Shown: positions 24,376-36,938 of the stretch, piece after piece
Layout of the letters: each line of letters starts with the position of its first letter
Position numbering within the stretch: the stretch's first letter is position 1
Virus record (IMG/VR): IMGVR_UViG_3300033146_005641
Span: 1-64,000 of that record
Origin: a virus
Direction: 5' to 3' (one strand)
Length of the DNA: 64,000 nucleotides
The notes under the pieces: model-generated
What the model was told of the DNA's origin: nothing
Database searches by the model: none
The model's input: only the letters and a program-made list of their open reading frames with translations
Made by a program: the position numbers and the translations under genes

Positions 24376-24789
24376 TTGAATAAACCAATAATTTATTTGT
24401 CGGGTAACATGACGCCTTCACCAGAATTTTATAATAGTTGGACCGAAAAGATTATACATAAGGTGGGTTCTAAGTTTCGGTGTACTCATTCAAGATATAA
24501 GGAAGGTGGTAGTTTTATAGTTCAAACAGATTTAGCCAGATTAAAAAATTCACACATTTTAGTAGTTAATTTAGGTGTACAAGATAAATCTCATCACTTA
24601 ACAGGTTCAATAGTAGAAATCTATGAAGCATTTAAGAGAAATATACCCGTATATGCTTTTACCTGTAATAATTTAATAAGAAGCGAACAAGCAGACTCTC
24701 CATGGATTCAATCCTTCATAGCTAAAGAATTTAGTTCAGAAATAGAACTAGTCAGATATTTAATGATTAATGAGAATTTAGTAGTATGA
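24376..24789 (+). CDS. Nucleoside 2-deoxyribosyltransferase-like protein
   Basis: 137 residues from TTG 24376. The start IIYLSGNM, the central VQTDLARLKNSHILVVNLG and the TGSIVEIYEAFKRNIPVYAF segment follow the pattern of the nucleoside deoxyribosyltransferase superfamily: a Gly-rich first loop, an Asp in the D.....S..lv.n pattern and a Glu in G...E...A. Probably acts on modified nucleosides or nucleotides. As first gene of the QueC/DpdA/QueE operon it may handle the modified base. Specific substrate not visible. Confidence 0.65.
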   Translation: MNKPIIYLSGNMTPSPEFYNSWTEKIIHKVGSKFRCTHSRYKEGGSFIVQTDLARLKNSHILVVNLGVQDKSHHLTGSIVEIYEAFKRNIPVYAFTCNNLIRSEQADSPWIQSFIAKEFSSEIELVRYLMINENLVV

Positions 24790-25274
24790 AGACATTAATA
24801 ATAGATGTAGATGAAACTATAGTATCTCTACGCAAAAAATGGAATAAATGGAGTGAAGATAATCTAGGATATTCTCTAGACTTTACTAAAGAGATTAATG
24901 ATGATAGAGCTCTAGAGTTCTGGAAAAGAGATAGTTTATATGATAATCTTGAACCTATTCCGGAGGCTCTTAATACTATTAAAAAGATAAGTAAAGATTA
25001 TAATATTATATTCTGTAGTCATTGTTTTGATGAGCATGTGGAATCTAAGAAAAAATTTATACAAAAATATTTTGATGATATTGAATATAGGTTTATTAAT
25101 ACAGGAGATAAACATAATGTAGAGGGAGATATTATAATTGATGATAGAGAAAGATTTCTGACATCTGATGAACACATAACAATTTTACTTAAGACAGAGT
25201 TTAATAGTACAGGTATAGCTGATTATGAAATGAACTGGAAAGAAATCGAAAAATTTTTAGAAAAGGAAGTATAG
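24786..25274 (+). CDS. 5'(3')-deoxyribonucleotidase-like HAD phosphatase
   Basis: 162 residues. HAD motif I is IDVDETI (~6-12), with a Ser/Cys motif II near FCSHCF and the acidic motif IV IIIDDRERF (~118-126). The layout matches the small NT5C-type deoxyribonucleotidases common in phages. Likely removes phosphate from dNMPs to steer the pool. Starts in the previous stop (ATGA). Confidence 0.75.
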   Translation: MKTLIIDVDETIVSLRKKWNKWSEDNLGYSLDFTKEINDDRALEFWKRDSLYDNLEPIPEALNTIKKISKDYNIIFCSHCFDEHVESKKKFIQKYFDDIEYRFINTGDKHNVEGDIIIDDRERFLTSDEHITILLKTEFNSTGIADYEMNWKEIEKFLEKEV

Positions 25275-26045
25275 ATGATTAAAGATATAGATAATATATT
25301 TAATAAGTCGCTAGATAAGAAATGTTTATTATATAGTGGAGGATTAGATTCTTATATTATATATCAGCTAGAAAAAGATAATTTAGATTTTATTTTATAT
25401 ATAGACTCTAAATCTAAATATAGTAAGTATGAAATTGAATATCTAAAGAAGCAGAAATTAGATATTCCTATTATTATAGATGATAGATTAGATCTATCAG
25501 ATGTAGAGATGTCTAATAGTTATGTGCCTCTACGAAACCTATTTTTTAGTATGATAGCTGTTTTACACGGTGCAAGCGATATTCTTATTGGTGTAACTAG
25601 CGGAGATAGAGCTAAAGATAAAGATACTACCTTTAAAAAATTAACCGAAGATGTAATAAATTATCAACTTGAATCTCAGTGGTGGCATCCAGGATCTAAA
25701 ATTAATATTAATATGAAATATAAAAATTTTACTAAAAAAGATTTAATAGAGGAATATATTAGAAGGAGATATGATGTTAGAGATTTAATAGATAAATCAT
25801 TTAGTTGTTATCATCCTACCAAAGAAGGAAAAGAATGTCTATCATGTAAACCGGACATTAGAAAGTATACATTCTTGAGTAAGTATATAGATATTGGACA
25901 AGAAAGAAAAACAGCTTTAAGAAAATTTTATACTAAAGATATTATAATTGAGATAAAAGAAAGAGTAAATACTTCTAATAGTAGAGGTCAAGAAGATTTA
26001 GAAACTTTAGAAGCTATAGAAAGGAATTTTGAATGTCAAAAATAA
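25275..26045 (+). CDS. queC: QueC-like 7-cyano-7-deazaguanine synthase
   Basis: 256 residues. PP-loop ATPase motif SGGLDS (~20-25). C-terminal zinc-site region SFSCYHPTKEGKECLSCKPD (~183-202) resembles the QueC cysteine cluster. QueC turns 7-carboxy-7-deazaguanine into preQ0 with ATP and ammonia. It lies with QueE and a transglycosylase-like protein, which supports a DNA-base modification role. It is diverged, so a different PP-loop substrate is possible. Confidence 0.75.
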   Translation: MIKDIDNIFNKSLDKKCLLYSGGLDSYIIYQLEKDNLDFILYIDSKSKYSKYEIEYLKKQKLDIPIIIDDRLDLSDVEMSNSYVPLRNLFFSMIAVLHGASDILIGVTSGDRAKDKDTTFKKLTEDVINYQLESQWWHPGSKININMKYKNFTKKDLIEEYIRRRYDVRDLIDKSFSCYHPTKEGKECLSCKPDIRKYTFLSKYIDIGQERKTALRKFYTKDIIIEIKERVNTSNSRGQEDLETLEAIERNFECQK

Positions 26046-26584
26046 TTTTTGTTGGAGCTCAAGGAACAGGTAAGACTACTATGAATAATATAATAAGTTC
26101 TTACCTTCCCGATTATAGAGTTATTGATAGTATGTCAGAGAAGTTTTTTAAGAAGGATTTCTTTAAAGATGTTAATTCTGATAGGTATCTAAGAGCTCAG
26201 ATAGATATATATAACTATGCTTCTAGTGAGTATCTACAGAATGCAGATATTATAAGTTCTAGAGGATTTGCAGATAGTTACGGATATGTAAAGCATAGTT
26301 TAGATCAAACAGGAAAAGAGGAATTTAGAGAAATAATCAGAAGAATATTTTTAGATCAAGAAGCACTTTTAAAACAAGATGTGGTTCATTTCTATTTTCC
26401 GATTGAGTTTGATATAGAGAGTAAAGAACTTAGAAGTACTAATAAAGAATTCCAAGAGAAAACAGATAAGAATATATTAAAGTTTTTAAAAATGACAGAT
26501 ACTCCATTTTATGAAGTTAGAGGAACGGTTGAAGATAGAGAAAAATATATTCTAAAAATATTAAAAGCGAGGAAAATTATATGA
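26033..26584 (+). CDS. P-loop kinase-like protein (AAA_28 / nucleotide kinase type)
   Basis: 183 residues. Walker A GAQGTGKTT (~8-16), an SRGFADSYGY segment (~83) in the place of the DR-type kinase motif, and a C-terminal region like deoxynucleoside or NadR-type kinases. Probably phosphorylates a nucleoside, nucleotide or cofactor. In this operon it could act on deazaguanine nucleotides. It overlaps queC by 13 bases. Confidence 0.65.
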   Translation: MSKIIFVGAQGTGKTTMNNIISSYLPDYRVIDSMSEKFFKKDFFKDVNSDRYLRAQIDIYNYASSEYLQNADIISSRGFADSYGYVKHSLDQTGKEEFREIIRRIFLDQEALLKQDVVHFYFPIEFDIESKELRSTNKEFQEKTDKNILKFLKMTDTPFYEVRGTVEDREKYILKILKARKII

Positions 26585-27330
26585 TTTTCAGTCATGAAAT
26601 TCCTAAAAACCTATTAGACGTTTCTAGGTTTTTTAATCATTATGATTATGCATTAGACATACACTTCGATGATGAGAAATACTATAATTTTTTTAAAGAA
26701 AGTATAGAACTAGGCAGAACTGTAATATTAGATAATAGTTTATATGAGCGTAGAATTACTAATATATCTTTCGACGAAGAAAAGTATGCAAAATATATAA
26801 AAGACCTAAATCCTACATATTATATAATTCCTGATGCTTATGAATCTAGTGAGAAAAATATTATGTTATTTGAAAATTGGATGAAAAAGTTTAATATAGA
26901 TATTATAGGTAATAGTAAAATAGTCGTAATTCATGGTAGGGATTATAGTGACTATGTAAAATGCTATAAGTATTTTGATACTCATATACGAGATGAGGAT
27001 ATTATAGCTTTTAGTGGCGGAGATTCAAATATAGATAGAGAAAAGGTAATTCGTAGGATGTATTTAGAAGGACATATTAATCTAAAACGAAAACATCATC
27101 TATTAGGATTAGTACATCCTAAAGAACTAGAATCATATAAACATTTTAGTTTTATTACAAGTGTAGATACAAGCTTACCTATTATTTGTGCTGTAGAAAA
27201 TCATAAAATAGACGAGATAACAGAAAAACCTAAAACAGTAATTACTAAGATATTTAATGAAGATGTTAAATTAGATTTTAGATTACTATATTATAATATA
27301 TATAAATTAAGAGAGGTAGTTAATGATTAG
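26581..27330 (+). CDS. TGT/DpdA-like base transglycosylase
   Basis: 249 residues. The pattern VILDNSLYERR (~50-60), YYIIPDAYES (~79-88), IVVIHGRDYSDY (~116-127), HHLLGLVHPKELESY (~180-194) and SVDTS (~203-207) fits the DpdA branch of the tRNA-guanine transglycosylase fold, which swaps guanine for preQ0 in phage DNA. The fixed Asp residues in LDNS, IPD and VDTS are plausible catalytic positions. Between kinase-like and QueE genes. The assignment rests on motif pattern only. Confidence 0.65.
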   Translation: MIFSHEIPKNLLDVSRFFNHYDYALDIHFDDEKYYNFFKESIELGRTVILDNSLYERRITNISFDEEKYAKYIKDLNPTYYIIPDAYESSEKNIMLFENWMKKFNIDIIGNSKIVVIHGRDYSDYVKCYKYFDTHIRDEDIIAFSGGDSNIDREKVIRRMYLEGHINLKRKHHLLGLVHPKELESYKHFSFITSVDTSLPIICAVENHKIDEITEKPKTVITKIFNEDVKLDFRLLYYNIYKLREVVND

Positions 27331-28099
27331 TATAATGGAGATATTTTACTCGGTTCAGGGTGAAGGTGAAAGAACCGGTAGACCGAGTATTTTTGTAAGA
27401 TCGGGATTATGTAATTTTACATGTCAGGGATTCGGCGTAGAATACGAAGATCCTAGAACAGGAGAATCTAAATATGGGTGTGATAGTTATTATTCAGTAA
27501 ATCCCGGATTTGCTAAGAGTTGGGACCTTTATGAAAATTATATAGATATTGTATATAGAATAGATGGTTGTATTCCTAAATTTAGTAAGCATAATTTGAT
27601 TAAACCCGATATAGTATTTACAGGTGGAGAACCTCTTATTCTCTGGAAAGATAAGGAATATCAGAAGCTTTTAGCTCACTATATTAGTAGAGGACATCAC
27701 GTTACTATTGAAACTAATGCTTCTATAGATATTGAATTCACTAGAAAATATCAAGAACAAATACAATTCAGTATGTCAGTTAAACTTAGTAACTCGGGAG
27801 AGCCTAAACATAAACGTATTAATATTAATAATATAACAAATATATTAGAAAATAGTACTAATAGTTATCTAAAATTTGTAGTTGATAGAGATACATGGTA
27901 TACAGACTTCGACGAAATTAAAGAAATTTTAAAAGATATTCCATACTATGTAGAAGATGTATATCTAATGCCCTTAGGAGATACTAGAGAAAAACTAGAG
28001 CAGAACGCAAAATTTGCTATGGAGAAATGTATAGAGATAGGTTTTTTATATAGTGATAGAGTACATATTAGAGTATGGGATAATAAAGGAGGAGTATAA
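27323..28099 (+). CDS. queE: 7-carboxy-7-deazaguanine synthase, radical SAM
   Basis: 258 residues. Starts IMEIFYSVQGEGERTGRPSI, the QueE opening. The cluster Cys are in GLCNFTC, with the third in YGCDSYYS after an insertion of about 15 residues. The SAM-binding FTGGEPLI is at ~95 and IETNAS at ~130. Makes 7-carboxy-7-deazaguanine from 6-carboxytetrahydropterin. QueD and FolE are not in the window, so the precursor probably comes from the host or from elsewhere in the genome. Confidence 0.85.
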   Translation: MISIMEIFYSVQGEGERTGRPSIFVRSGLCNFTCQGFGVEYEDPRTGESKYGCDSYYSVNPGFAKSWDLYENYIDIVYRIDGCIPKFSKHNLIKPDIVFTGGEPLILWKDKEYQKLLAHYISRGHHVTIETNASIDIEFTRKYQEQIQFSMSVKLSNSGEPKHKRININNITNILENSTNSYLKFVVDRDTWYTDFDEIKEILKDIPYYVEDVYLMPLGDTREKLEQNAKFAMEKCIEIGFLYSDRVHIRVWDNKGGV

Positions 28100-28330
28100 G
28101 TGAAAAATAATGGAGGAGATACAGACTACTATAAAGTAAAGCCTGAATGGAAAATGGCTCAGGATATTATAGAAGATAGAGATATGAACTTCAGTCAAGG
28201 TAACATACTTAAAGTGGCTTTTACATTTAATCTAGGAAGACATTCCGGTACAGACTATGAAAGAGATCTAAATAAAATTATATATTTTGCTCGAAGAGAA
28301 TTAAATAAAATTAAAAATAAAGGAAATTAA
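28100..28330 (+). CDS. DUF3310 family protein
   Basis: 76 residues from GTG. DYYKVKPEWKMAQDIIEDRD then FNLGRHSGTDYERDLNKIIY matches the DUF3310 phage family, found alone or fused to nucleotide kinases. Function not established; often near nucleotide metabolism genes, as here (between queE and dut). Confidence 0.75.
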   Translation: MKNNGGDTDYYKVKPEWKMAQDIIEDRDMNFSQGNILKVAFTFNLGRHSGTDYERDLNKIIYFARRELNKIKNKGN

Positions 28331-28782
28331 TGGTAACGGTATATATTCATAAAGAAAACAAAAACGCGGTAACACCGGAGGTAGCATATAACAATACGAG
28401 TGCATGTTTTGATTTAACGTGTACGGAGACAGTAACGATTCCTGCCGGTGAATCCCGAGTAGTAGAAAACGGTTTAAACGTTTGTATAGATCAAGGAGAC
28501 CCATATTGGATGCAAATCCAGCTAAGAAGTTCTAAGGGATTTAAGTATGATTTAATACCTCACTATGGAACAGTAGATGCGGGATATACAGGTCCTTTAG
28601 GAGTAAAAGTATATAATGTTGGTAAGGAAGATGTAACTATTCAAAAAGGTGAAAGATATGCACAAATTGCAGTAATTCCTAAACCACAATATAACATTAG
28701 AGAACTATCTGATGATGAGTTTAAAGAATTTGAACAAAAGCAACATAGAGGTTCAGGCGGTTTTGGTAGTTCTGGTAAGTAA
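28330..28782 (+). CDS. dut: dUTPase (trimeric)
   Basis: 150 residues. Motifs in order: SACFDLTC (I), RSSKGF (II), GTVDAGYTGPLGVKV (III), KGERYAQIAVIP (IV), RGSGGFGSSG (V). Hydrolyses dUTP to dUMP, feeding ThyX and keeping uracil out of DNA. Start overlaps the previous stop (TAATG). Confidence 0.92.
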   Translation: MVTVYIHKENKNAVTPEVAYNNTSACFDLTCTETVTIPAGESRVVENGLNVCIDQGDPYWMQIQLRSSKGFKYDLIPHYGTVDAGYTGPLGVKVYNVGKEDVTIQKGERYAQIAVIPKPQYNIRELSDDEFKEFEQKQHRGSGGFGSSGK

Positions 28783-28833: not shown

Positions 28834-31800
28834 ATGGAGTTTACTAAATATCAATATGAAAATATCTTTCAGGTTAGTAGAAAAGAGGGTAGAAAAAATA
28901 TAGTTGAGGTAAAGGCTCGGATTTTTGATCCCGAATCTAAAGAATCTTTTTTTATAGACGTGACAAGTGATAGTATACCAGATTTATATACTATCACAAC
29001 CCAAGATACACTATGGAAATCATATTTAGATAGTAATGTTAGCCTACAAAAACACTCATTTGAAAGTATTCAAGAATATAAAAAATTTTTAAAAGACTAT
29101 AAGTATAATGTACTTGATGAGGAGGGTAGTCAAGTATATAAAACTATCGATTTTGATGGTGAAGAAATAGAAATACCTGTAACAGAGTTTAAAGATACTA
29201 TATTTGGATATCAGAATTTGTCTCATACGTTTATTCGAAATAAATTTAAAGATTCTGAAAAAAGTAATCATACTCATAGAGTATGGTTCTTAGATATTGA
29301 AACTAGAGCTAATCAAGCAGTTGACCACTTTCCGTGGCCAGAAACAGCACCTGAAGAAATTACTATGATTCAGATATATGATAATTTCGATAATATGTAT
29401 TATATATTTGGTAGAAAGGATTTTACGGGAGCTTTCGAAAAGAGTAATGTAAAATATATTAAAATAGCCGAAGAAAAAGATCTTTTAGAAATATTTCTGA
29501 GACTCCTAGAAAAGAAGAAACCGTCTGTTATATCTGGGTGGAACTCTCTAGGTTTTGATATGACATATATAACAAATCGTATAGCTATAGTCTTAGATGG
29601 TGTACGAGCAACAGAAAATGAACTAAAAGAAATTCTAAATCATAAGCATAGTTATAAAGAACTTAAAAATGTAAAAAGATTAAGTCCTGTAGGCATTGTA
29701 GAAGCTAAATCTAGCTTTACTATGGACGGTATGGACTGTACGGAAGTAAAATGGTATGGTATTAATCTTATAGATTATAGAGAACTTACAATCAAGTATG
29801 GATTTTTAGGACTGCCTAGTTATAGTTTAAAAAATGTTGCTAAACATTTTGATCTATCTCAAAAACTTGATAATAGTATGTATAAATCTTTTGATGGATT
29901 TTATACAGGAGAGGGTTGGATTCAGCCACCCGAGGATGAAACAGACCTAGATGATATAGTTACAAGATATCAACTAGGATATAAATCAGGTAAATATTCT
30001 AAAAAAGAATTACAACAGGTAGTATATAATAGATTCGTTGACTATTCCTTAAGAGACGTGGAAATACTTGTTGAACTAGATGAACTGACTAAATATTTAG
30101 ATTCACATAAACAAATTGCATATTTTGCTGGTGTATCTATGGATGATAATTGGGGAACGCAAAAACACTGGGTTTCTATGATGTATAGAGAATCTCTAAA
30201 TAAAGGATTAGTTCTTCCCCTAAAACAACAGTATGGTGATGAGAGCACTCCGTGGTTAGCAGGATGGGTTCGTACAATTCCTGGTAGATATAGATATATT
30301 AGCTCGTTCGACTTTACCTCTCTATATCCTAGTCTTATTAGAGCGTGGAATATTGGAGGAGATACATACCTAAAAGAATATCAGATTCCTCAAGAATTAA
30401 AAGATCTAAGAGATAAATATTTCTGGTATTTTACAAGAAAAAACCTTAATAGGGATGAAGCGTTTGGAGAGCTAGGCGAAACCGTTAAGAAATATGATGA
30501 TAAAATCAATGATATACCTGAAGAGAAGAAATTTTATTTAGAACTTATGGAGAATAGAGATATTATCTCTAAAACTCTTAAAAAATATAATGTTCAAATT
30601 ACACCTAATGGATATTTTTATAGAAAAGATACCCAGAGTATTTTCTCGGGACAGATGGAGAAATTTTTTAAAGAGAGACTTAAAGAAAAAAGACTAGGTC
30701 AAAAATATGAAGCTATTTTATCAGATACAGATAAAGATAATGATAAATATCAAGAGATAAAACAAAAGAAAGAATATCATGAAAATAGATCTATCGTACT
30801 TAAAGTACTATTAAATAGTGCATATGGTGTTTCAGCCTTAAGTAGTAATCCTTTCGGACAGGGAAGAATTACGGGAGGTAGTATTACTATTAGTGGTAGA
30901 ATGAGTAATAATCTTGTCTCTATGAATCTGAATAAATATATAGCAGAGGTCGTTGACGATAAAGAGACTGTCAAAAATCCGTGGAATATGAAGTATATTA
31001 TTCAAGCCGATACAGATAGTTGCTACGTTAATCTGGGATCTATTATAGAGAAAAAGTTTAAAAATCTAGAGGAATCTAAAAAAATTAAGCTTTTACTTAA
31101 ATTAAGTAGTGAAAAACTTCAAGATATTATTAATAATACTATACAGGAGATAGGAGATACTTTTAATCTTTCAGAGCCTGAAGCACTAAAGATGGAAAAT
31201 GAGGTAATTACAGAAAGTTTTGTATCTCTAGCTTTAAAGAGATACTTTACAGATGTAGTAGTAAATGATGGACATATACTATCTAAACCTAAAAGAAAAA
31301 TAGTAGGTGTTTCTTTGGTATCATATAGTACTCCACCTGCCTTAAAGAGGTTACTATCACCTGTTGTGGATATTGCTTTAGAGGGAGGAGAGACAGAGGT
31401 AAGAGAATATATACATAAGTCAAGACACGAATTTGCTGAATTAGATCCTGTTGAATTTGCTAGAACAGCTAAAGTGAATAATTTAAATTATATGGAAAGA
31501 GATGGAAAGTATAAAAGACAAAAAGAGGATGGTACGTGGTTAACAGCACCTCTAGGTAGTACGGCCGCTCTTAATCATAATAAAATTACTAAAATGTTAA
31601 ATATTCAAGAGATATTCCCGCCTGTAGAAAAAGGTGATTCTTTAAGCTATGTATATATAAAAGAACCTAATAAATTAAATATACGTTCTGCACTAGGATG
31701 GACAGATCCTAAATTAAGTAAAAAGATAAACTTGAAATCATTTGCAGACTATGATTTACACTGGGAAAAAGATTTTATAAATAAGATAGATATAATTATT

Positions 31801-31854
31801 AAACCATTAAATTGGAATATTCACGCCAGAACTCAAGAAATTGATGAATGGTAG
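28834..31854 (+). CDS. Family B DNA polymerase, T4 gp43-like
   Basis: 1006 residues. The exonuclease domain has FLDIETR (Exo I, ~150) and VISGWNSLGFDMTYI (Exo II, ~232). Polymerase motif A is FDFTSLYPSLI (~492), motif B KVLLNSAYGVSAL (~657) and motif C QADTDSCYV (~725). Length and layout match the T4-type replicative polymerase. Its C-terminus (RTQEIDEW) is unlike the PQYFI tail. Replicates the phage genome with the helicase at 41062 and the clamp-loader-like protein at 40631. Confidence 0.95.
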   Translation: MEFTKYQYENIFQVSRKEGRKNIVEVKARIFDPESKESFFIDVTSDSIPDLYTITTQDTLWKSYLDSNVSLQKHSFESIQEYKKFLKDYKYNVLDEEGSQVYKTIDFDGEEIEIPVTEFKDTIFGYQNLSHTFIRNKFKDSEKSNHTHRVWFLDIETRANQAVDHFPWPETAPEEITMIQIYDNFDNMYYIFGRKDFTGAFEKSNVKYIKIAEEKDLLEIFLRLLEKKKPSVISGWNSLGFDMTYITNRIAIVLDGVRATENELKEILNHKHSYKELKNVKRLSPVGIVEAKSSFTMDGMDCTEVKWYGINLIDYRELTIKYGFLGLPSYSLKNVAKHFDLSQKLDNSMYKSFDGFYTGEGWIQPPEDETDLDDIVTRYQLGYKSGKYSKKELQQVVYNRFVDYSLRDVEILVELDELTKYLDSHKQIAYFAGVSMDDNWGTQKHWVSMMYRESLNKGLVLPLKQQYGDESTPWLAGWVRTIPGRYRYISSFDFTSLYPSLIRAWNIGGDTYLKEYQIPQELKDLRDKYFWYFTRKNLNRDEAFGELGETVKKYDDKINDIPEEKKFYLELMENRDIISKTLKKYNVQITPNGYFYRKDTQSIFSGQMEKFFKERLKEKRLGQKYEAILSDTDKDNDKYQEIKQKKEYHENRSIVLKVLLNSAYGVSALSSNPFGQGRITGGSITISGRMSNNLVSMNLNKYIAEVVDDKETVKNPWNMKYIIQADTDSCYVNLGSIIEKKFKNLEESKKIKLLLKLSSEKLQDIINNTIQEIGDTFNLSEPEALKMENEVITESFVSLALKRYFTDVVVNDGHILSKPKRKIVGVSLVSYSTPPALKRLLSPVVDIALEGGETEVREYIHKSRHEFAELDPVEFARTAKVNNLNYMERDGKYKRQKEDGTWLTAPLGSTAALNHNKITKMLNIQEIFPPVEKGDSLSYVYIKEPNKLNIRSALGWTDPKLSKKINLKSFADYDLHWEKDFINKIDIIIKPLNWNIHARTQEIDEW

Positions 31855-32179: not shown

Positions 32180-32256
32180 GCCGGTTTAGCTCAGTTGGCC
32201 AGAGTGCTTCACTTGTAATGAAGAGGCCGAGGGTTCGAATCCTTCAACCGGCACCA
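32180..32256 (+). tRNA. tRNA-Thr (UGU)
   Basis: Acceptor GCCGGTT/AACCGGC, D-stem GCTC, anticodon loop CTTGTAA, T-loop TTCGAAT, discriminator A, encoded CCA. Confidence 0.95.
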
Positions 32257-32265
32257 CTTAAATAT

Positions 32266-32342
32266 CTAGGTATAGTTCAGTTAGGCAGAACACCTGGTTT
32301 GGGACCAGGAGGTCGTAGGTTCGATCCCTACTACCTAGACCA
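32266..32342 (+). tRNA. tRNA-Pro (UGG)
   Basis: Acceptor CTAGGTA/TACCTAG, anticodon stem CCTGG/CCAGG with loop TTTGGGA, discriminator A, encoded CCA. Confidence 0.95.
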
Positions 32343-32345
32343 TAT

Positions 32346-32420
32346 ACACCTATAACTCAGTGGTAGAGTACTTCTCTTACAAGGAAGGAGTCGATAGTTC
32401 GAGTCTATCTAGGTGTACCA
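32346..32420 (+). tRNA. tRNA-Val (UAC)
   Basis: Acceptor ACACCTA/TAGGTGT, D-stem ACTC/GAGT, anticodon loop CTTACAA, encoded CCA. Confidence 0.93.
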
Positions 32421-32434
32421 TGTAGATCGTAAAT

Positions 32435-32510
32435 GGGGTGTTAGCTCAGCGGGTAGAGCGCTTGTTTTGCAAGCAAGAGGTCCAGAGTTCGATTCTCTGA
32501 CATTCCACCA
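32435..32510 (+). tRNA. tRNA-Ala (UGC)
   Basis: Acceptor GGGGTGT/ACATTCC includes a G3-U70 pair, the alanine identity element. Loop TTTGCAA, encoded CCA. Confidence 0.95.
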
Positions 32511-32514
32511 TTTT

Positions 32515-32601
32515 GGATACGTCGTCAGTAGGGAGACAGCCGGTCTTGAAAACCGTGTGCGGATCAAACCGTTGTGAGTTCGAGTCTCACCGTATCCTCC
32601 A
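32515..32601 (+). tRNA. tRNA-Ser (UGA)
   Basis: Acceptor GGATACG/CGTATCC, anticodon loop CTTGAAA, long variable arm as in serine tRNAs, T-stem GTGAG/CTCAC, discriminator T (unusual for Ser), encoded CCA. Confidence 0.88.
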
Positions 32602-32702
32602 TAAAATAAAAAGGGTTTATAAATGGAAAAGAGTTTAGAGTTTAAAGGTAGCTTTAGATAATAAAATAGTTGTTTTGTGAAGCTTTTTAGATGATTTATT
32701 AC

Positions 32703-32778
<76 letters not shown>

Positions 32779-32781
32779 TTT

Positions 32782-32857
<76 letters not shown>

Positions 32858-32862
32858 GGTGG

Positions 32863-32946
32863 GCTCCGATGGCGAAATTGGTAGACGCGCTAGATTTAGG
32901 ATCTAGTACATTGAGTGTGAGAGTTCGAGTCTCTCTCGGAGTACCA
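32863..32946 (+). tRNA. tRNA-Leu (UAG)
   Basis: Acceptor GCTCCGA/TCGGAGT, anticodon stem CTAGA/TCTAG with loop TTTAGGA, extended variable arm, encoded CCA. Confidence 0.93.
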
Positions 32947-32970
32947 AAGAAATTTAATATTTTATTTGTT

Positions 32971-32993
32971 TTTAAGGTATATTACTATATAAT
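32971..32993 (+). promoter_or_regulatory. Early-type promoter inside the tRNA cluster
   Basis: TTTAAG-N11-TATAAT after tRNA-Leu(UAG), so the cluster is read from several promoters. Confidence 0.7.
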
Positions 32994-33058
32994 ATATGTA
33001 TAAAAAGAGATAGATAATATTTTAGGTTATTTAAGTTATAATTGTTAATAATACATTT

Positions 33059-33186
33059 TATATAAACTCAAATTATATGAAGATTGGATAGACTGAGCGA
33101 ATGAGTTCGATTCTCATTAACAAAGGTATGGTACAGATCGCGAGGTAGTTAGTCGGTTCGATTCCGACATAATTTGAGTTTATATA
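33059..33186 (+). ncRNA. tRNA-like relic with an 18-bp closing stem
   Basis: Perfect 18-bp inverted repeat (33059-33076 with 33169-33186) closes a 92-base region. Inside, one T-arm (GTCGG-TTCGATT-CCGAC) abuts the 3' strand exactly as in a tRNA, with AAATTAT/ATAATTT as a 7-bp acceptor. A second T-arm-like hairpin (GAGTTCGATTCTC) occurs at about 33102. No anticodon arm or CCA. Either a fused or decayed tRNA or a tRNA mimic. Confidence 0.55.
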
Positions 33187-33307
33187 AGGCGTTGATTTTT
33201 CTCTTGTAGTGAGAGTTTCCTGTCTCGTCTGAAGCCGAATTATTAGATAGTCGTTCTAACCAAACGATACTTTTAATTTGAGGGATATTAAATAGGAAAA
33301 AATAAAC

Positions 33308-33384
33308 GTACTGGTAGCTCAGCGGGTAGTAGCATCCGATTTTTAATCGGAAGGTCGTGAGTTCGATTCTCACTCAGTACACCA
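33308..33384 (+). tRNA. tRNA-Lys (UUU)
   Basis: Acceptor GTACTGG/TCAGTAC, anticodon stem TCCGA/TCGGA with loop TTTTTAA, encoded CCA. The D-arm carries an extra base pair of nucleotides (GGGTAGTAGC). Confidence 0.92.
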
Positions 33385-33386
33385 AA

Positions 33387-33460
33387 CCTCAGTTAGTTCA
33401 ATGGTAGAACGTTCGACTGATAATCGGAAAACGGAAGTTCAATTCTTCCACTGAGGACCA
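33387..33460 (+). tRNA. tRNA-Ile (GAU)
   Basis: Acceptor CCTCAGT/ACTGAGG, D-stem GTTC/GAAC, anticodon loop CTGATAA, encoded CCA. Confidence 0.93.
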
Positions 33461-33465
33461 TAAAC

Positions 33466-33550
33466 GTAGTCTAAAAGCTGATCGGATTCAGCAGCGGGAC
33501 TGTAAATCCCGTCCTTAAAGGGGGTGGTTCGAGTCCACTAGACTACACCA
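33466..33550 (+). tRNA. tRNA-Tyr (GUA)
   Basis: Acceptor GTAGTCT/AGACTAC, anticodon stem CGGGA/TCCCG with loop CTGTAAA, long variable arm, encoded CCA. Confidence 0.94.
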
Positions 33551-33555
33551 TTAAT

Positions 33556-33640
33556 GCATCTATGGCGGAATTGGTAGACGCGCTGGACTTAAAATCCAGT
33601 TCTTTAGAGAGTTCCGGTTCAAATCCGGATAGATGCACCA
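33556..33640 (+). tRNA. tRNA-Leu (UAA)
   Basis: Acceptor GCATCTA/TAGATGC, anticodon stem CTGGA/TCCAG with loop CTTAAAA, extended variable arm, encoded CCA. Confidence 0.94.
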
Positions 33641-33731
33641 GACAATATAAAAGAACGTTTTATAAAAGTTTAAGAAAATTTTTGTAAAGCGTTCTAAAAT
33701 AAGTCCTAGGTTTATTTTGGAGCGTGAGATC

Positions 33732-33817
33732 ACAAATAAAGTTCTTGGTTAGACGTGCGGTGCAAATCCGTTTTACCATAGTAGGTGCGGAAGGTTCAAT
33801 CCCTTCGCTTTATTTGT
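33732..33817 (+). ncRNA. tRNA-like relic with a T-arm but no usable anticodon
   Basis: Inverted repeat ACAAATAAAG/CTTTATTTGT closes an 86-base region. A T-arm GAAGG-TTCAATC-CCTTC abuts an acceptor-like 7-bp stem ATAAAGT/GCTTTAT. The centre has CGG-TGCAAAT-CCG but no U33, and the 3' end reads TGT rather than CCA. Likely a decayed tRNA or a structural mimic. Confidence 0.5.
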
Positions 33818-33882
33818 TAAAACTTATAATGAAGGCCAAGTTATAAGGATTTCCGGTTAGGTCTTCCGTAAAAAGACTATCA

Positions 33883-33967
33883 GGAAGTGGCACGTAAGGT
33901 ACGTAAGAGGTTTGCTAAACCTTGGCCGGTAAAACGGTAGTGAGTTCGATTCTCACCATTTCCACCA
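33883..33967 (+). tRNA. tRNA-Ser (GCU)
   Basis: Acceptor GGAAGTG/CATTTCC, anticodon stem GAGGT/ACCTT with loop TTGCTAA, long variable arm, T-stem GTGAG/CTCAC, encoded CCA. The 65 bases before it hold small inverted repeats, including GGCCAAG complementary to its own CTTGGCC. Confidence 0.88.
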
Positions 33968-33980
33968 TATTTAATTGTAT

Positions 33981-34003
33981 TTTAAGCAAGATTATTATAT
34001 AAT
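33981..34003 (+). promoter_or_regulatory. Early-type promoter inside the tRNA cluster
   Basis: TTTAAG-N11-TATAAT between tRNA-Ser(GCU) and tRNA-Glu. Confidence 0.7.
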
Positions 34004-34014
34004 ATGTGTATAAT

Positions 34015-34088
34015 GGCTCCTTAGATTATTGGTAGATCGACGCTCTTTCACAGCGTAGAGACCGGGTCAGTACCGGTAGGAGTCACCA
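34015..34088 (+). tRNA. tRNA-Glu (UUC)
   Basis: Acceptor GGCTCCT/AGGAGTC, D-stem GATT/GATC, anticodon stem ACGCT/AGCGT with loop CTTTCAC, encoded CCA. Confidence 0.93.
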
Positions 34089-34090
34089 TT

Positions 34091-34165
34091 GCTCTCATAG
34101 TATAGTGGTTATTACGCCGGTTTGTCACATCGGTAACCGGAGTTCAATTCTCCGTGGGAGCGCCA
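34091..34165 (+). tRNA. tRNA-Asp (GUC)
   Basis: Acceptor GCTCTCA/TGGGAGC, anticodon loop TTGTCAC, discriminator G as expected for Asp, encoded CCA. Confidence 0.93.
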
Positions 34166-34169
34166 TTAA

Positions 34170-34246
34170 GGACTAATAGCTCAGTTGGTTAGAGCCCTCT
34201 GCTCATAACGGAGTGGTCGTAAGTTCGAATCTTACTTAGTCCACCA
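34170..34246 (+). tRNA. tRNA with CAU anticodon (Ile2 or elongator Met)
   Basis: Acceptor GGACTAA/TTAGTCC, anticodon stem CTCTG/CGGAG with loop CTCATAA, encoded CCA. The GGAC...GTCC ends and the TTGGTTAGAGC D-arm resemble bacterial tRNA-Ile2, in which C34 is lysidine-modified. Met cannot be excluded. Confidence 0.9.
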
Positions 34247-34254
34247 TTTTATAT

Positions 34255-34326
34255 TCCGGTGTACTCAATTGGCACGAGGCGGAGCTGTTAACTCTAAATA
34301 TGCTGGTTCAAATCCAGCCACCGGAG
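34255..34326 (+). tRNA. tRNA-Asn (GUU)
   Basis: Acceptor TCCGGTG/CACCGGA, anticodon loop CTGTTAA, T-stem GCTGG/CCAGC, discriminator G. What follows is CCCACCA, so the CCA is not encoded in the usual place. A hairpin with GAAC/GTTC follows. Confidence 0.88.
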
Positions 34327-34389
34327 CCCACCACCAAGTTTTGACTTATTGAACTTCAAAGTTCAGGTGGTGACCATCATAAAAAATAA

Positions 34390-34465
34390 GGATGAGTAGC
34401 ACAACTGGCAGTGCAACAGGTTTTGAGCCTGTGGGTTAGAGGTTCGAATCCTCTCTCATCTTCCA
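34390..34465 (+). tRNA. tRNA-Gln (UUG)
   Basis: Acceptor GGATGAG/CTCATCT, D-stem GCAC/GTGC, anticodon stem ACAGG/CCTGT with loop TTTTGAG, encoded CCA. Confidence 0.92.
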
Positions 34466-34475
34466 TTTTAAATAT

Positions 34476-34552
34476 CGCTGGCGGGAGGTAGGTATCTCAC
34501 GAGGGCTCATAACCCTTGTTAACTCGGTTCAATTCCGAGGCTTCAGTAACCA
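34476..34552 (+). tRNA. Initiator tRNA-fMet (CAU), diverged acceptor
   Basis: The anticodon stem has GGG/CCC pairs around loop CTCATAA, the initiator signature. The first base C faces A (C1xA72), also typical. T-arm CTCGG-TTCAATT-CCGAG is sound. Acceptor pairing is imperfect (one C:T mismatch, two G:U). CCA is encoded. Confidence 0.7.
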
Positions 34553-34555
34553 AAT

Positions 34556-34631
34556 ATATCAGTAGCTCTAATGGTAGAGCAGGAGATTCCAAATCTTCAG
34601 GTTGTGGGTTCAAATCCTACCTGGTATGCCA
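34556..34631 (+). tRNA. tRNA-Trp (CCA)
   Basis: Acceptor ATATCAG/CTGGTAT, D-stem GCTC/GAGC, anticodon loop TTCCAAA, discriminator G, encoded CCA. The CCA anticodon reads UGG only, so UGA stays a stop. Confidence 0.92.
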
Positions 34632-34787
34632 AAAAATTAAAAAATTTTAGTTAAGTTTTTCGACATTAAATAAAGTTTATAGGAGGCTACTCGAGCAGAA
34701 TCTAATATTCTGTGCTTCTGAAAAAGTTCCTGTGGAGATAGGACAATTATTATAGTTAACTCAGAAATTTTCTAGAAAATTTTTAGG

Positions 34788-34862
34788 GTGACTATAGTAC
34801 AACGGTTAGTACACTCGTCTGTGGAACGAGGTATTGGAGTTCGATTCTCCATAGTCACACCA
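34788..34862 (+). tRNA. tRNA-His (GUG)
   Basis: Acceptor GTGACTA/TAGTCAC with an extra G just before position 1, as usual for His. Anticodon stem CTCGT/ACGAG with loop CTGTGGA, encoded CCA. Confidence 0.93.
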
Positions 34863-34865
34863 AAT

Positions 34866-34942
34866 GCCGCCTTATCTCAGCCGGATAGAGCAGAGAACTT
34901 CTAATTCTCGGGTCACACGTTCAAATCGTGTAGATGGTACCA
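34866..34942 (+). tRNA. tRNA-Arg (UCU)
   Basis: Anticodon stem GAGAA/TTCTC with loop CTTCTAA, T-loop TTCAAAT, encoded CCA. The acceptor GCCGCCT/AGATGGT has one mismatch and two G:U pairs. Confidence 0.85.
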
Positions 34943-35297
34943 TAGAAAATTTTAATAGGTCTTCATATTAGGTTGAAGATCTACAAAGTTTTCTTATTTT
35001 TGATGAAAAATAAGTGGTGAGTCCTAATAGGCAATCAGCGCCTCTCAATCATATAATATCTGTATGTAAAACATCGACTTAGTATGATAAGCGGGAACCT
35101 AAAATAGTTTTATATTTGGCTTCAAACAAATATAAATTAAAAGTAATTCTATTGAAACTACTGACAATCTATGACAAACAGGATAAAACACTCCATTGTA
35201 TCTCTGTGATAGAAGGAAGCGGGAAAATCCTTACAAATCCTGTAGTTAAGTTATTAAAAGACCTTGAAAGAGGTCGCTTAACTTTAAGATATATAAT
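34943..35297 (+). other. 355-base stretch, probably structured RNA, unassigned
   Basis: No convincing gene. It contains GTTAAG/CTTAAC around an inner GACCT/AGGTC hairpin (about 35243-35283), TATATTTG/CAAATATA (about 35111-35134) and two AGCGGGAA motifs. An ATG-free frame opens late (35116) but reads through the next tRNA-like gene, so I do not call it coding. A diverged self-splicing intron or tRNA debris are both possible; neither is shown. Confidence 0.4.
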
Positions 35298-35370
35298 GGC
35301 TAGATTCAATGGAGAAAACTCAGATCTCATAAGTCAGAGAAGTGCGGGTCGGTGCCGCATCTAGTCACCA
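35298..35370 (+). tRNA. Degenerate tRNA-Met (CAU) candidate
   Basis: Acceptor GGCTAGA/TCTAGTC with discriminator A and encoded CCA. The anticodon loop CTCATAA is in the right place. The T-stem TGCGG/CCGCA abuts the acceptor, but its loop is GTCGGTG instead of TTCRANN, the D-arm is reduced and the anticodon stem has an A:A mismatch. The 73-base geometry fits a tRNA. It could be the elongator tRNA-Met or a dying copy. Confidence 0.55.
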
Positions 35371-35386
35371 TCGGAAGGAAAAATAA

Positions 35387-35674
35387 ATGCTAAAAGATGT
35401 CAAGAATGTAGAAGATTGTGAGATTGGAAACTATCTTTTCATTTTATTTCGACGTTCTAGGGGAAGATTTTCAGAAGCGTTTATTAGTAAAGTGATAGAT
35501 GATAACATATTTAAAAATACCCTAGTTCTGAAAGATATTAAGAATTTTACAAATCCTGAAGATATTAATCAAGAATGGTATTGTAATTTTAATTCTGAAT
35601 TTAAAGTTATTAAAAAAATAAAGAAAGAAAATATTGAAAATTTTGAAGAAAAGTTTCCTCAATATTTTATATAA
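35387..35674 (+). CDS. Hypothetical protein with PQYFI tail, within the tRNA cluster
   Basis: 95 residues (RBS GGAAGGAAA). Alpha/beta, ending FEEKFPQYFI. It lies between tRNA genes; tRNA-Cys starts two bases after its stop. Function unknown. Confidence 0.65.
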   Translation: MLKDVKNVEDCEIGNYLFILFRRSRGRFSEAFISKVIDDNIFKNTLVLKDIKNFTNPEDINQEWYCNFNSEFKVIKKIKKENIENFEEKFPQYFI

Positions 35675-35676
35675 AC

Positions 35677-35751
35677 GTCGCAATGTCTGAATGGTAAAGA
35701 ACCTGATTGCAAACCGGGTATTAGTGAGTTCGATTCTCACTTGCGACTCCA
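35677..35751 (+). tRNA. tRNA-Cys (GCA)
   Basis: Acceptor GTCGCAA/TTGCGAC, anticodon loop TTGCAAA (closing pair A:C mismatched), T-stem GTGAG/CTCAC, discriminator T, encoded CCA. Starts two bases after a stop codon. Confidence 0.9.
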
Positions 35752-35756
35752 TAGAC

Positions 35757-35833
35757 GTCTCGATAGTTCAACTGGATAGAATATTCGGCTACGGACCGAA
35801 AGGCTGAGGGTTCGAATCCTTCTCGGGACACCA
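35757..35833 (+). tRNA. tRNA-Arg (ACG)
   Basis: Acceptor GTCTCGA/TCGGGAC, anticodon stem TTCGG/CCGAA with loop CTACGGA (A34 normally becomes inosine), encoded CCA. Last tRNA of the cluster. Confidence 0.93.
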
Positions 35834-35841
35834 AAGGGAAA

Positions 35842-36018
35842 ATGAAAGCTTTAGACTTAGATTCTTTAGAAAGAGAAGTAGTTATCTTAAGATCATATCT
35901 ATCTTTTAGAGAATGCGTTTTGCAAAACGCAAAACGCAAAACGCAAAACAAACAGGATACTTATAGAATTAGTTTTAAAAAGAAGAAAGTTAAAAAATTT
36001 CAAATATATAAAGAATAA
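35842..36018 (+). CDS. Hypothetical small basic protein with tandem-repeat core
   Basis: 58 residues. The middle (LQNAKRKTQNKQ) is encoded by four tandem copies of GCAAAAC (35922-35949). The C-terminal end is Lys-rich (ISFKKKKVKKFQIYKE). It abuts the RNase H-like gene by two bases. Confidence 0.45.
   Translation: MKALDLDSLEREVVILRSYLSFRECVLQNAKRKTQNKQDTYRISFKKKKVKKFQIYKE
35922..35949 (+). repeat. Heptanucleotide tandem repeat (GCAAAAC)x4
   Basis: Four exact tandem copies, preceded by GTTTTGC, so the start can also fold on itself. As the unit is not a multiple of three, changes in copy number would shift the reading frame of the gene it lies in. Confidence 0.9.
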
Positions 36019-36020
36019 AA

Positions 36021-36488
36021 ATGAAAAAAAGAGAAAGAAAAGTTCATACGATGGATGTAGAGGAAGTGAGGAAGTTTATATTAGATTATCCAACAGCTAA
36101 AATTTATCTCGGAGCCGATTCTCAAAGAATCCGAAAGAAAAGAGTAAAATTTGTCGTTGTTGTTGTTGTTCACTATGAGGGTCATTGCGGAGCTAAAATA
36201 TTTTATGAAACATCTTATGATCACATTACAGATGCTAAACTTTCAAGACCCTTCAATAGAATGATGAAGGAAGTTCAGCTTTTAACAGAATTATATACTC
36301 AATTAGAAGATATTTTATGGAATAGAGATTTTGAAATTCATATCGATGTTAATCCTGAAAAAGGTACCGGTTCTAATGTTGCTTATCAGGCAGCTAAAGG
36401 TGTTATTTGGGGTATGATAGGTGTAGAGCCTGTATGTAAACCTGAGGCATGGTGTGCCTCAACTGTGGCGGATAAATATTCGAAATAA
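36021..36488 (+). CDS. DUF458 / YkuK-type RNase H-like protein
   Basis: 155 residues. The YLGADSQRIRKKRVKFVVVVVVH segment (~30-52), then the IHIDVNPEKGTGSN acidic stretch (~108-121) and AWCASTVADKYSK end follow the DUF458 (YkuK) family, which has an RNase H-like fold. Asp33, Asp110 and Asp150 are candidate metal ligands. Lying next to the tRNA cluster it might process structured RNA; that is inference. Confidence 0.75.
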   Translation: MKKRERKVHTMDVEEVRKFILDYPTAKIYLGADSQRIRKKRVKFVVVVVVHYEGHCGAKIFYETSYDHITDAKLSRPFNRMMKEVQLLTELYTQLEDILWNRDFEIHIDVNPEKGTGSNVAYQAAKGVIWGMIGVEPVCKPEAWCASTVADKYSK

Positions 36489-36490
36489 GT

Positions 36491-36706
36491 ATGAAAAAGA
36501 GTATATACCTATACGTTATTAATAATAAACTCTATGAGGTTTACTATAAATATAATAAAAATATTACTTATAGATATGTAAAAGAGTATGGATCACGAGA
36601 TAAACCTATAAGATATTATGATTATGGAAGAAAAAAATCATTAGGTATGGCCCGGGTTCTTACTAAAGAACAAGCTAGAGAAAAATTTCCTCAATATTTT
36701 ATTTGA
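36491..36706 (+). CDS. Hypothetical small protein with PQYFI tail
   Basis: 71 residues, very Tyr/Lys-rich (YLYVINNKLYEVYYKYNKNI), ending REKFPQYFI. Three bases after the previous stop; a promoter follows directly. Confidence 0.6.
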   Translation: MKKSIYLYVINNKLYEVYYKYNKNITYRYVKEYGSRDKPIRYYDYGRKKSLGMARVLTKEQAREKFPQYFI

Positions 36707-36707
36707 T

Positions 36708-36730
36708 TTTAAGTTTTATTACACTATAAT
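36708..36730 (+). promoter_or_regulatory. Early-type promoter
   Basis: TTTAAGTTTT, TATAAT at 11-base spacing, followed by the conserved leader AGAGAAAAGGATAGAAAG. Confidence 0.75.
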
Positions 36731-36759
36731 ATATTATATAAAGAGAAAAGGATAGAAAG

Positions 36760-36927: not shown

Positions 36928-36938
36928 TTTATAGAAAG

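Follow-up and report, generated by a model that had tools for sequence, protein, structure and literature searches.

The window analysed here, the first 64,000 nucleotides of the 183-kb virus record IMGVR_UViG_3300033146_005641, carries an operon at 24376-28099 whose six genes overlap or abut, delineated from the ORF list, profile searches and structure models. With a further small ORF at 28100-28330, seven plus-strand ORFs overlap or abut over 24376-28330 (Table 1). The first ORF overlaps the HAD gene (start 24786) by 4 bp, the HAD and QueC genes abut at 25274/25275, and overlaps of 13, 4 and 8 bp follow at the QueC/KIN, KIN/transglycosylase and transglycosylase/QueE junctions. An earlier note on this DNA had described such a seven-gene operon; its layout and its HAD, QueC, kinase-like, TGT-like and QueE assignments hold, while the deoxyribosyltransferase and DUF3310 assignments correspond to weak matches.

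Table 1 Genes of the operon, its downstream neighbours and the distant precursor genes. Positions of FolE and QueD are those of the whole record.
Feature	Position	Strand	Details and evidence
Nucleoside 2-deoxyribosyltransferase-like	24376-24789	+	137 aa, TTG start; weak Pfam match, motif
HAD-fold 5'(3')-deoxyribonucleotidase-like	24786-25274	+	Pfam NT5C, PHROG; DVDET motif
QueC-like PP-loop synthase	25275-26045	+	Pfam QueC, PHROG; SGGLDS
KIN, small P-loop deoxynucleoside/deoxynucleotide kinase-like	26033-26584	+	AAA_28, PHROG, AF2 model; GAQGTGKTT
DpdA3-like guanine transglycosylase	26581-27330	+	TGT barrel model, PHROG, immuto relative
QueE, 7-carboxy-7-deazaguanine synthase-like radical SAM	27323-28099	+	PHROG; CX3CX18C cluster motif
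76-aa protein, possibly DUF3310-like	28100-28330	+	GTG start; weak PHROG link
dUTPase, next downstream gene (dNTP-pool gene)	28330-28782	+	Pfam dUTPase E 8e-17
Family B DNA polymerase	28834-31854	+	Pfam DNA_pol_B E 3e-10, exonuclease E 3e-12
FolE	105505-106014		E 2e-28
QueD	106113-106697		E 6e-24

FolE, QueD, QueE and QueC occur with the transglycosylase in this one record, and the phage almost certainly carries a 7-deazaguanine DNA-modification system. The operon had been described as one without FolE and QueD; both are indeed absent from the 64-kb window, but a search of the whole record places them near 105-107 kb, so that the description is wrong for the virus. QueF was not found in a search of the record. 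The QueC-like protein exceeds the Pfam QueC cut-off (E 7e-12, 45.7 versus 22 bits), matches phrog_1550 (E 1.5e-16) and contains a readable PP-loop; its score against TIGR00364 is far below the cut-off (23.4 versus 150.3 bits), its zinc motif SCY...CLSCKPD has Asp in place of the fourth Cys, and a QueC search of PDB sequences returned nothing at E 0.1. QueE matches phrog_2076 (E 1e-56) and, below the cut-off, TIGR03963 (E 1e-18).

The 26581-27330 protein is predicted to form a guanine-transglycosylase barrel (AF2 model, pLDDT 94.1) that matches archaeosine TGT (1iq8, Z 17.2) and Z. mobilis TGT (Z 16.8). The barrel spans model range 1-249 (Z 16.4-17.2, rmsd 3.1-3.5 Å over 222-232 residues, among the 50 matches listed), and Foldseek aligns the model to DpdA 7ui4 at E 1.9e-6. 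An unrelated fold, which would have spoken against the 7-deazaguanine pathway with a transglycosylase proposed earlier, is not what the model shows. By sequence, the protein matches phrog_19058 (E 7e-23), and its best Pfam match, DUF6610 at E 0.02, is unconvincing; a search of PDB sequences with a DpdA3 profile returned no match at E 1. With hhalign, E. coli TGT aligns at 4% probability, in a register that sets VVQG against FGIIQG and HHLLG against RYLMG, and DpdA3 aligns to DpdA1 at low probability and without detectable profile likeness, so that the relation to both rests on structure. Conservation of D51, D85, D196 and H173 rounds to 1.00 among 156 sequences; by motif, we take the three aspartates to be the counterparts of TGT catalytic residues. 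The classical tRNA-guanine transglycosylase zinc site is CXCX2C plus a His, and the CXCX2C motif is absent from this translation.

As a single query, the window's transglycosylase found no relatives among viral contigs, and alignment queries were required. In tblastn searches it matches the 'DNA guanine transglycosylase' of Flavobacterium phage immuto (32%, E 2e-30) and Campylobacter phages (firehammervirus proteins 34-36%, E 2e-24 to 7e-21), with which it forms one sequence group. We take this clade to be DpdA3, linked to complete guanine replacement, and Cui and colleagues reportedly placed these proteins in DpdA3. Compared with that subfamily, the present protein has His for the Gln of VVQG, and the phage has QueC without QueF together with extra nucleotidase and deoxyribosyltransferase-like genes.

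KIN matches Pfam AAA_28 (E 4e-10) and phrog_2107 'thymidylate kinase' (E 2e-11), and scores 14 versus 83.25 bits against the curated threshold of thymidylate kinase TIGR00041. Its AF2 model (pLDDT 90.8) adopts a P-loop nucleoside/nucleotide kinase fold (Z 15.0-17.6 among the 50 matches listed). The nearest solved folds among these are nucleoside and dTMP kinases, including NadR kinase (Z 17.6), M. mycoides deoxyadenosine kinase (Z 17.2) and thymidylate kinase (Z 16.2). The KIN family is also present in 89 Streptomyces phage records, none of which is among the 24 phage records matching the window's transglycosylase, so KIN is not exclusive to such loci.

The 24376-24789 protein lies below the Pfam cut-off for PF05014 (E 0.032, 14.8 versus 28.8 bits) and is not a member by curated score; its GSHPx match (E 7.5e-5) is also below cut-off, and a PDB search gave no useful match. 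It contains ...HLTGSIVEIYEAFKRNIPV..., which we take to resemble GTxxELGxAxxxGKPV, a motif of the nucleoside 2-deoxyribosyltransferase superfamily. The HAD protein is above the Pfam cut-off for NT5C (E 1e-11) and matches phrog_2643 (5'-3' deoxyribonucleotidase, E 4e-5) and phrog_420 (E 2e-26). The 28100-28330 protein matches phrog_7063 (E 3e-8) and, weakly, phrog_25460 (E 2e-4), a link also common to a true DUF3310 protein; PF11753 (DUF3310) gave no Pfam match, in one search none for the control either, and hhalign against three DUF3310 proteins was negative. The polymerase gene lies on the operon's strand and is at most a candidate member of the operon.

We then compared loci that encode DpdA3-type and DpdA1-type transglycosylases. 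The first set comprised 88 DpdA3 loci (scan retaining the best 80 of 340), the second 68 counted loci (best 80 of at least 389) and the DpdA1 control 84 loci (best 80 of 164). Eight second-scan loci whose contigs the first set already covered were left out (L206, L208, L210, L224, L225, L244, L250, L256), and L023, L036, L059 and L070, which recurred in the second scan, were dropped before counting. With flanks of 3 kb or more required on each side, 59/88, 39/68 and 67/84 loci remain, respectively, and the 98 DpdA3 loci so filtered divide into 83 LDNS-type and 15 LDNG-type (phiST-like). Profiles for KIN, QueC and the other genes were built in two rounds on the same loci and, once complete, run against the DpdA1 loci; structure alignments used 43/90 and 28/70 relatives after redundancy and completeness filtering.

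Our main new result, obtained from these sequence comparisons, is that a kinase-like gene is linked to the DpdA3 type of transglycosylase across many virus loci. KIN occurs in 69/88 first-set loci (from the best 80 of 340), on the strand of the transglycosylase in 69/69 and within 1.5 kb of it in 67/69. Among LDNS-type loci of both best-80 scans with flanks of at least 3 kb, 78/83 hold a kinase-like or DUF3310 gene (KIN 72, DUF3310 4, AAA_18-type kinase-like 2) and no kinase was found in five; two of the 72 KIN matches (L239, L255) sit 6.8-6.9 kb from the transglycosylase. LDNG-type loci, filtered and scanned in the same way, have a kinase in 7/15, and DNA polymerase is the next gene in the kinase-free L192 and L231. 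In the DpdA1 control (best 80 of 164), KIN was found in 0/84 loci (0/67 with flanks of at least 3 kb), and KIN, DUF3310 or AAA_18-type genes in 1/67; these loci nonetheless hold FolE (81/84) and QueC (78/84). Because many loci are near-duplicates, clusters were also counted, giving KIN in 18/33 DpdA3 versus 0/8 DpdA1 clusters at 60% identity (p 0.0056) and 27/46 versus 0/19 at 70% (p 3.4e-6); at 50% all DpdA1 loci collapse into one cluster and the test is uninformative. Among the papers that literature searches listed, none describes a kinase partner of DpdA3.

Nine first-set loci without KIN (from the best 80 of 340) carry a DUF3310 gene, directly before QueF in eight; the DUF3310 copy of locus L018 matches Pfam at E 1e-9. 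A compact dpdA3-kin-queF cassette without other dNTP genes is present in 30/68 second-set loci (from the best 80 of at least 389), with overlapping genes in 28. KIN accompanies varied side-chain pathways, with QueF and a formyltransferase, QueF alone, or neither. By single-sequence profiles, the deoxyribosyltransferase-like and HAD genes were not found in the other 87 first-set and the 68 second-set loci.

MazG-type profiles match 40/83 LDNS-type loci (flanks of at least 3 kb, best-80 scans). As a partner of DpdA3, the MazG type is strong by locus (38/59 versus 1/67 for DpdA1) but falls short of significance when clusters are counted (p 1 at 60%, 0.09 at 70%), and was therefore not taken as main evidence. 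A phosphoribosyltransferase of guanine recycling was not specific (42/88 versus 32/84 DpdA1 loci), and the isoelectric point, considered as a sign of DNA binding, was uninformative (median 5.26 for DpdA3 versus 5.64 for DpdA1). Searches for a DpdA2 control gave just three loci, all of one mycobacteriophage type, and a stretch of Vibrio phage nt-1 without an annotated transglycosylase, so that the control loci used are of DpdA1 type.

The link to Campylobacter firehammerviruses drawn in the earlier note is strengthened by the transglycosylase relatives and by QueE, which is 69.5-71% alike by DNA over 8-11% of the query. In Campylobacter phage CP220, the transglycosylase and KIN genes adjoin as they do here, whereas its QueE and transglycosylase genes are 41 kb apart rather than in one operon. 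The best 40 records for the present polymerase are all Campylobacter phages, at just 27-29% identity. DpdA1 systems (phage 9g, Seurat group) also bring together FolE, QueD, QueE, a QueC-type gene and a transglycosylase, and differ in their QueE motif, which is CX3CX2C in 72/72 matches. Campylobacter phages are described in passages of PMC6884629 as highly modified by dADG and of PMC8713573 as having guanosine replaced by deazaguanosine.

Because DpdA3-type enzymes are mostly encoded near a kinase-like gene, the comparison suggests that the base may be swapped on nucleotides before they enter DNA, lending comparative support to the earlier suggestion of a kinase that could make nucleotide-level modification possible. 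FolE, QueD, QueE and QueC would convert GTP to a 7-deazaguanine base, ending in preQ0 or its amide ADG, which the DpdA3-type transglycosylase would exchange for the guanine of a free nucleotide, probably dGMP. Phosphorylation by KIN would then lead from the exchanged nucleotide towards its triphosphate, which the phage polymerase would incorporate instead of dGTP. Competing dGTP may be lowered by pool enzymes: the HAD nucleotidase, the deoxyribosyltransferase-like protein, perhaps an HD-AAA protein (110.9-112.0 kb of the record; homologue of the gene preceding the CP220 transglycosylase and KIN), and in some relatives MazG-type enzymes or dATP/dGTP diphosphohydrolases. We favour this sequence of exchange, phosphorylation and polymerisation, at about even chances. 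Sequence and structure comparison shows the complete gene set, the TGT fold and its invariant acidic residues, the kinase fold of KIN, and the link of KIN with this transglycosylase type across loci; that a nucleotide is the substrate, that the steps run in this order and that this phage replaces its guanine completely are inferences.

The proposed logic resembles that of the Z-cluster (PurZ, MazZ, DatZ; 2-aminoadenine genomes), which, as outlined in PMC8342488, proceeds from MazZ to dGMP, then PurZ, then the triphosphate: an altered dNMP is phosphorylated and the competing dNTP removed. Base exchange is proposed here instead of PurZ, and no MazG-type enzyme (MazG/PRA-PH; PF03819 or PF01503) was found in this record. 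At somewhat under even chances, DpdA3 with KIN (or DUF3310) could constitute a minimal route from dGMP through 7-deaza-dGMP to the triphosphate, equivalent for guanine to the route that builds Z genomes.

To our knowledge, all nucleic-acid-modifying TGT and DpdA enzymes of known chemistry act on polynucleotides; Cui and colleagues reportedly concluded that insertion by DpdA, DpdA3 included, is post-replicative, and dADG phosphates were reportedly not found in infected cells by Crippen and colleagues, all of which counts against exchange on nucleotides. The loci in which no kinase was found, the two distant KIN matches, the KIN family's presence in Streptomyces phages and the lack of MazG, PRA-PH or QueF matches in this record point the same way. 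The conclusion ascribed to Cui and colleagues favours instead an exchange in polymerised phage DNA, as by DpdA1, with KIN and the nucleotide genes of the same early cluster serving only to raise dNTP supply. This would agree with the modelled TGT/DpdA fold, with NrdA, NrdB, ThyX and dUTPase being encoded in the window, and with the insertion of 7-deazaguanines into plasmid DNA by phage 9g dpdA, for which a passage of Hutinet 2019 (PMC6884629) gives up to ~18% of Gs modified. The kinase-like gene at 78/83 LDNS-type DpdA3 versus 1/67 DpdA1 loci (best-80 scans) and the cassette free of other dNTP genes (30/68) argue otherwise, and we regard post-replicative exchange as a real but minority prospect. 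In favour of exchange on nucleotides, a TGT-family enzyme can leave polynucleotides, as described for Cap10 (PMC11996544).

KIN might also act at the DNA level, on an inserted or hypermodified base: it is located with modification genes, and the P-loop kinases of thymine hypermodification act on the base in polymeric DNA. Yet preQ0, ADG and preQ1 have no hydroxyl for phosphorylation, KIN occurs with different side-chain pathways, and its closest folds among the matches listed are nucleoside and nucleotide kinases, which makes such a role improbable. A role in tRNA queuosine or in modifying host tRNA, instead of phage DNA, is very unlikely for these genes, even though QueC, QueE, FolE and QueD are queuosine precursor genes and the phage has 23 tRNA genes; the transglycosylase is nearer to its phage relatives than to TGT, to which structure only ties it, it lacks the CXCX2C motif, and Campylobacter phages are reported to have modified DNA (passages of PMC6884629 and PMC8713573).

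In a passage of Hutinet 2019 (PMC6884629), Campylobacter phages are grouped with those lacking DpdA, and a modified-dGTP route is raised as a possibility. The transglycosylase type of these phages now has one linked partner in many virus loci, the gene for a small kinase-like protein, which reduces the question of full guanine replacement to a two-protein in vitro problem. If DpdA3 acts on free nucleotides, it would be the first mononucleotide-acting TGT-family enzyme known to us. Exchange at the nucleotide level, if true, would explain guanine-free genomes and would offer a gene module for producing guanine-replaced DNA.

The transglycosylase of the operon was modelled with AlphaFold2 from 44 sequences (pLDDT 94.1). 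In the PDB, Foldseek places it closest to tRNA-guanine transglycosylases and to DpdA (7ui4), which inserts preQ0 into DNA, and among the 50 matches listed by a second structure comparison it aligns with Z scores of 16.4–17.2 over 222–232 residues. Across 156 sequences, the window copy included, conservation of D51, N52, D85, H173, L175, G176, D196 and N239 rounds to 1.00; Gln118 is 96% conserved and is His in the window protein, the translation of which contains no CXCX2C zinc motif. We take this clade to be the subfamily that Cui et al. (2023) call DpdA3. A single motif divides the family into an LDNS type, which includes the window protein, and an LDNG type, which includes that of phiST. By tblastn, relatives occur in 24 phage records (15 Campylobacter, 4 Flavobacterium and 5 Cellulophaga), where the Flavobacterium copies are annotated as 'DNA guanine transglycosylase' and the others are hypothetical or unannotated.

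A P-loop kinase-like protein, here KIN, is encoded one to three genes away from the transglycosylase in phages CP220, CC_R7 and immuto, and in phiST a different P-loop-type protein (AAA_18) adjoins it. We assembled 88 DpdA3 loci, comprising the window, four named phages and 83 fetched loci from an IMG/VR scan (best 80 of 340 relatives) and GTDB contigs, which added three. KIN is present in 69 of the 88, always on the transglycosylase strand (69/69) and at a median gap of 538 bp; the other genes found are formyltransferase-like (71), QueF (68), QueE (63), FolE (61), QueD (61) and QueC (54). The 19 loci without KIN include nine with a DUF3310 gene, phiST with its own P-loop protein, seven that stop no more than 0.55 kb beyond the transglycosylase, and a further two (L028 and L094) with none of these. 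The DUF3310 gene immediately precedes QueF in eight of those nine, and one locus (L071) carries both KIN and DUF3310. The substrates of T7 gp1.7 are dGMP and dTMP. This protein is a DUF3310 member and has been implicated in nucleotide kinase activity (PMC10700055).

A wider and evolutionarily more remote set came from a second scan led by phiST (at least 389 relatives, best 80 kept, 68 new loci). Here KIN occurs in 44 loci, the phiST-type protein (KIN2) in seven and DUF3310 in four, so that 55 of 68 have at least one. Over both sets, where at least 3 kb is available on either side, a kinase-like gene accompanies 78 of 83 LDNS-type and 7 of 15 LDNG-type transglycosylases; in two of the 72 KIN-bearing LDNS loci (L239 and L255) the KIN match lies 6.8–6.9 kb away. 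Among kinase-free LDNG loci, a DNA polymerase directly follows the transglycosylase in L231 (a PolA fused to a uracil-DNA-glycosylase-superfamily domain) and L192 (PolB), and the kinase-free LDNS locus L193 has such a fusion three genes before its DpdA3-like gene. In 30 of the 68 second-set loci DpdA3 directly adjoins KIN, with QueF after them, and the DpdA3 and KIN genes overlap in 28; this cassette contains no other nucleotide genes, and its neighbours are on the opposite strand in most of the 30. Examples combining overlapping genes with opposite-strand neighbours include L199, L200, L207, L219, L220 and L247, among others. QueD was found in one of eight cassette records searched, which are possibly fragments.

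As a control, we scanned likewise for DpdA1, the enzyme of phage 9g, keeping the best 80 of 164 for a total of 84 loci that include 9g itself and near-copies. These carry FolE (81), QueD (80) and QueC (78), with KIN in none and DUF3310 and MazG types in one each. A profile-free count of small ORFs with a P-loop pattern within 2.5 kb gave 66/88 DpdA3 loci versus 6/84 DpdA1 loci. After clustering at 60% identity, KIN is found in 18/33 DpdA3 versus 0/8 DpdA1 clusters (Fisher p 0.0056), and at 70% in 27/46 versus 0/19 (p 3.4e-6); at 50% all DpdA1 loci collapse into a single cluster, and the counts by locus therefore overstate how much of the evidence is independent.

The KIN model (pLDDT 90.8) matches NadR ribosylnicotinamide kinase, Mycoplasma deoxyadenosine kinase and thymidylate kinases, with Z scores of 15.0–17.6 among the matches listed. 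The immuto copy has relatives in 114 phage records, of which 89 are from Streptomyces phages; in the one examined, Jay2Jay, no 7-deazaguanine gene is listed within 6 kb of the KIN relative, and MazG and DNA polymerase III genes lie nearby. KIN may be a general deoxynucleotide kinase that was recruited to DpdA3 loci. Titles and abstract openings in the literature searched describe no kinase partner of a DpdA3 transglycosylase; this is no proof of novelty, because Cui 2023 and the de Crecy-Lagard 2024 review, the papers closest to this subject, fell outside that search.

The phage itself looks T4-like, judged on its gp23-type capsid (E 5e-8), both ribonucleotide reductase subunits, ThyX, DnaB-type helicase and family B polymerase genes; the 40 best-ranked records matching the polymerase are all Campylobacter phages (27–29%). 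At the DNA level the operon region has matches in 15 phage records, exclusively from Campylobacter phages and confined to queE (69.5–71%, 8–11% of the query). The earlier note described the operon as lacking FolE and QueD, a description that does not hold for the full record of 183,351 bases, of which the window is bases 1–64000. An HD-AAA protein near these genes is homologous to gp055 of CP220, which in that phage directly precedes the transglycosylase and kinase genes. QueF, MazG and PRA-PH have no match anywhere in the record, nor does Pfam DUF3310, a search that gave no match in any control genome either. Since the precursor genes are present and QueF was not found in the record, one would expect preQ0 or its amide as the base, and not preQ1. 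The window QueC has Asp in place of the fourth Cys of the canonical zinc motif. By pattern, CX3CX2C is found in 4/64 QueE hits of DpdA3-type loci versus 72/72 in DpdA1 loci; the CP220 motif is CX3CX17C.

Features of the record and of compared loci
Feature	Position	Remark
Leucine-rich-repeat-like protein	window 538-1830	
DUF2201 metallopeptidase/VWA protein, 132-aa ORF, AAA_5 ATPase	window 1884-4794	in this order
Operon	window 24376-28330	7 ORFs, all plus strand, abutting or overlapping
KIN	window 26033-26584	
Transglycosylase (DpdA3)	window 26581-27330	
QueE	window 27323-28099	cluster motif CX3CX18C
tRNA genes with a tmRNA	window 32180-38129	23 tRNA genes (ARAGORN)
tmRNA	window 37842-38129	Rfam 89 bits; tag VNNTDYTPAAQVA
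FolE	about 105.3-106.0 kb of record	same record as window
QueD	106.1-106.7 kb of record	same record as window
Phosphoribosyltransferase	108.2-108.7 kb of record	near FolE/QueD
HD-AAA protein	110.9-112.0 kb of record	near FolE/QueD
Leucine-rich-repeat-like phage protein	L004:5859-6497	read from sequence
Overlapping DpdA3 tandem, 265 and 289 aa	L023:6572-8231; L025:8765-10424	
UDG-PolA fusion	L231:6345-9080	
UDG-PolA fusion	L193:2962-5301	
Candidate family B DNA polymerase with intein (reads like)	L094:10879-15101	Clostridia MAG contig; gene after DpdA3
KIN relative of Jay2Jay	L181, 68249-68878	

A kinase partner is not expected of an enzyme that acts on finished DNA, because DpdA1 lacks one although its loci carry the same precursor genes, and from this comparison of gene neighbourhoods we give an even chance to a nucleotide-level route, in which the base would be swapped on a free deoxyguanosine nucleotide. 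The habits of the TGT family count against such a route; DpdA insertion, that of DpdA3 included, was reportedly found to be post-replicative by Cui et al. in 2023, and Crippen et al. in 2019 are said not to have found dADG phosphates in infected cells. The main alternative is exchange within DNA by the transglycosylase, with KIN as a general kinase for dNTP supply, an explanation that we regard as a serious possibility short of probable; the contrast between DpdA3 loci and the KIN-free DpdA1 loci counts against it.

In the nucleotide-level route, MazG-type enzymes could provide dGMP and remove dGTP; L028 has a dATP/dGTP diphosphohydrolase (PF18909, E 1e-25) that could do the same. A comparable role is described for Z-genome phages, where MazZ supplies dGMP and clears dGTP (PMC8342488). 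This part of the proposal is weaker, since the link does not reach significance in the cluster counts and the MazG type is missing from the window's record; in its place the operon has the HAD nucleotidase and the deoxyribosyltransferase-like protein. The kinase association seen across DpdA3 loci is the pattern to be expected if the transglycosylase produces a modified deoxynucleoside monophosphate on which host kinases act poorly; this product would need a kinase supplied alongside, a place that unrelated kinase families could fill.
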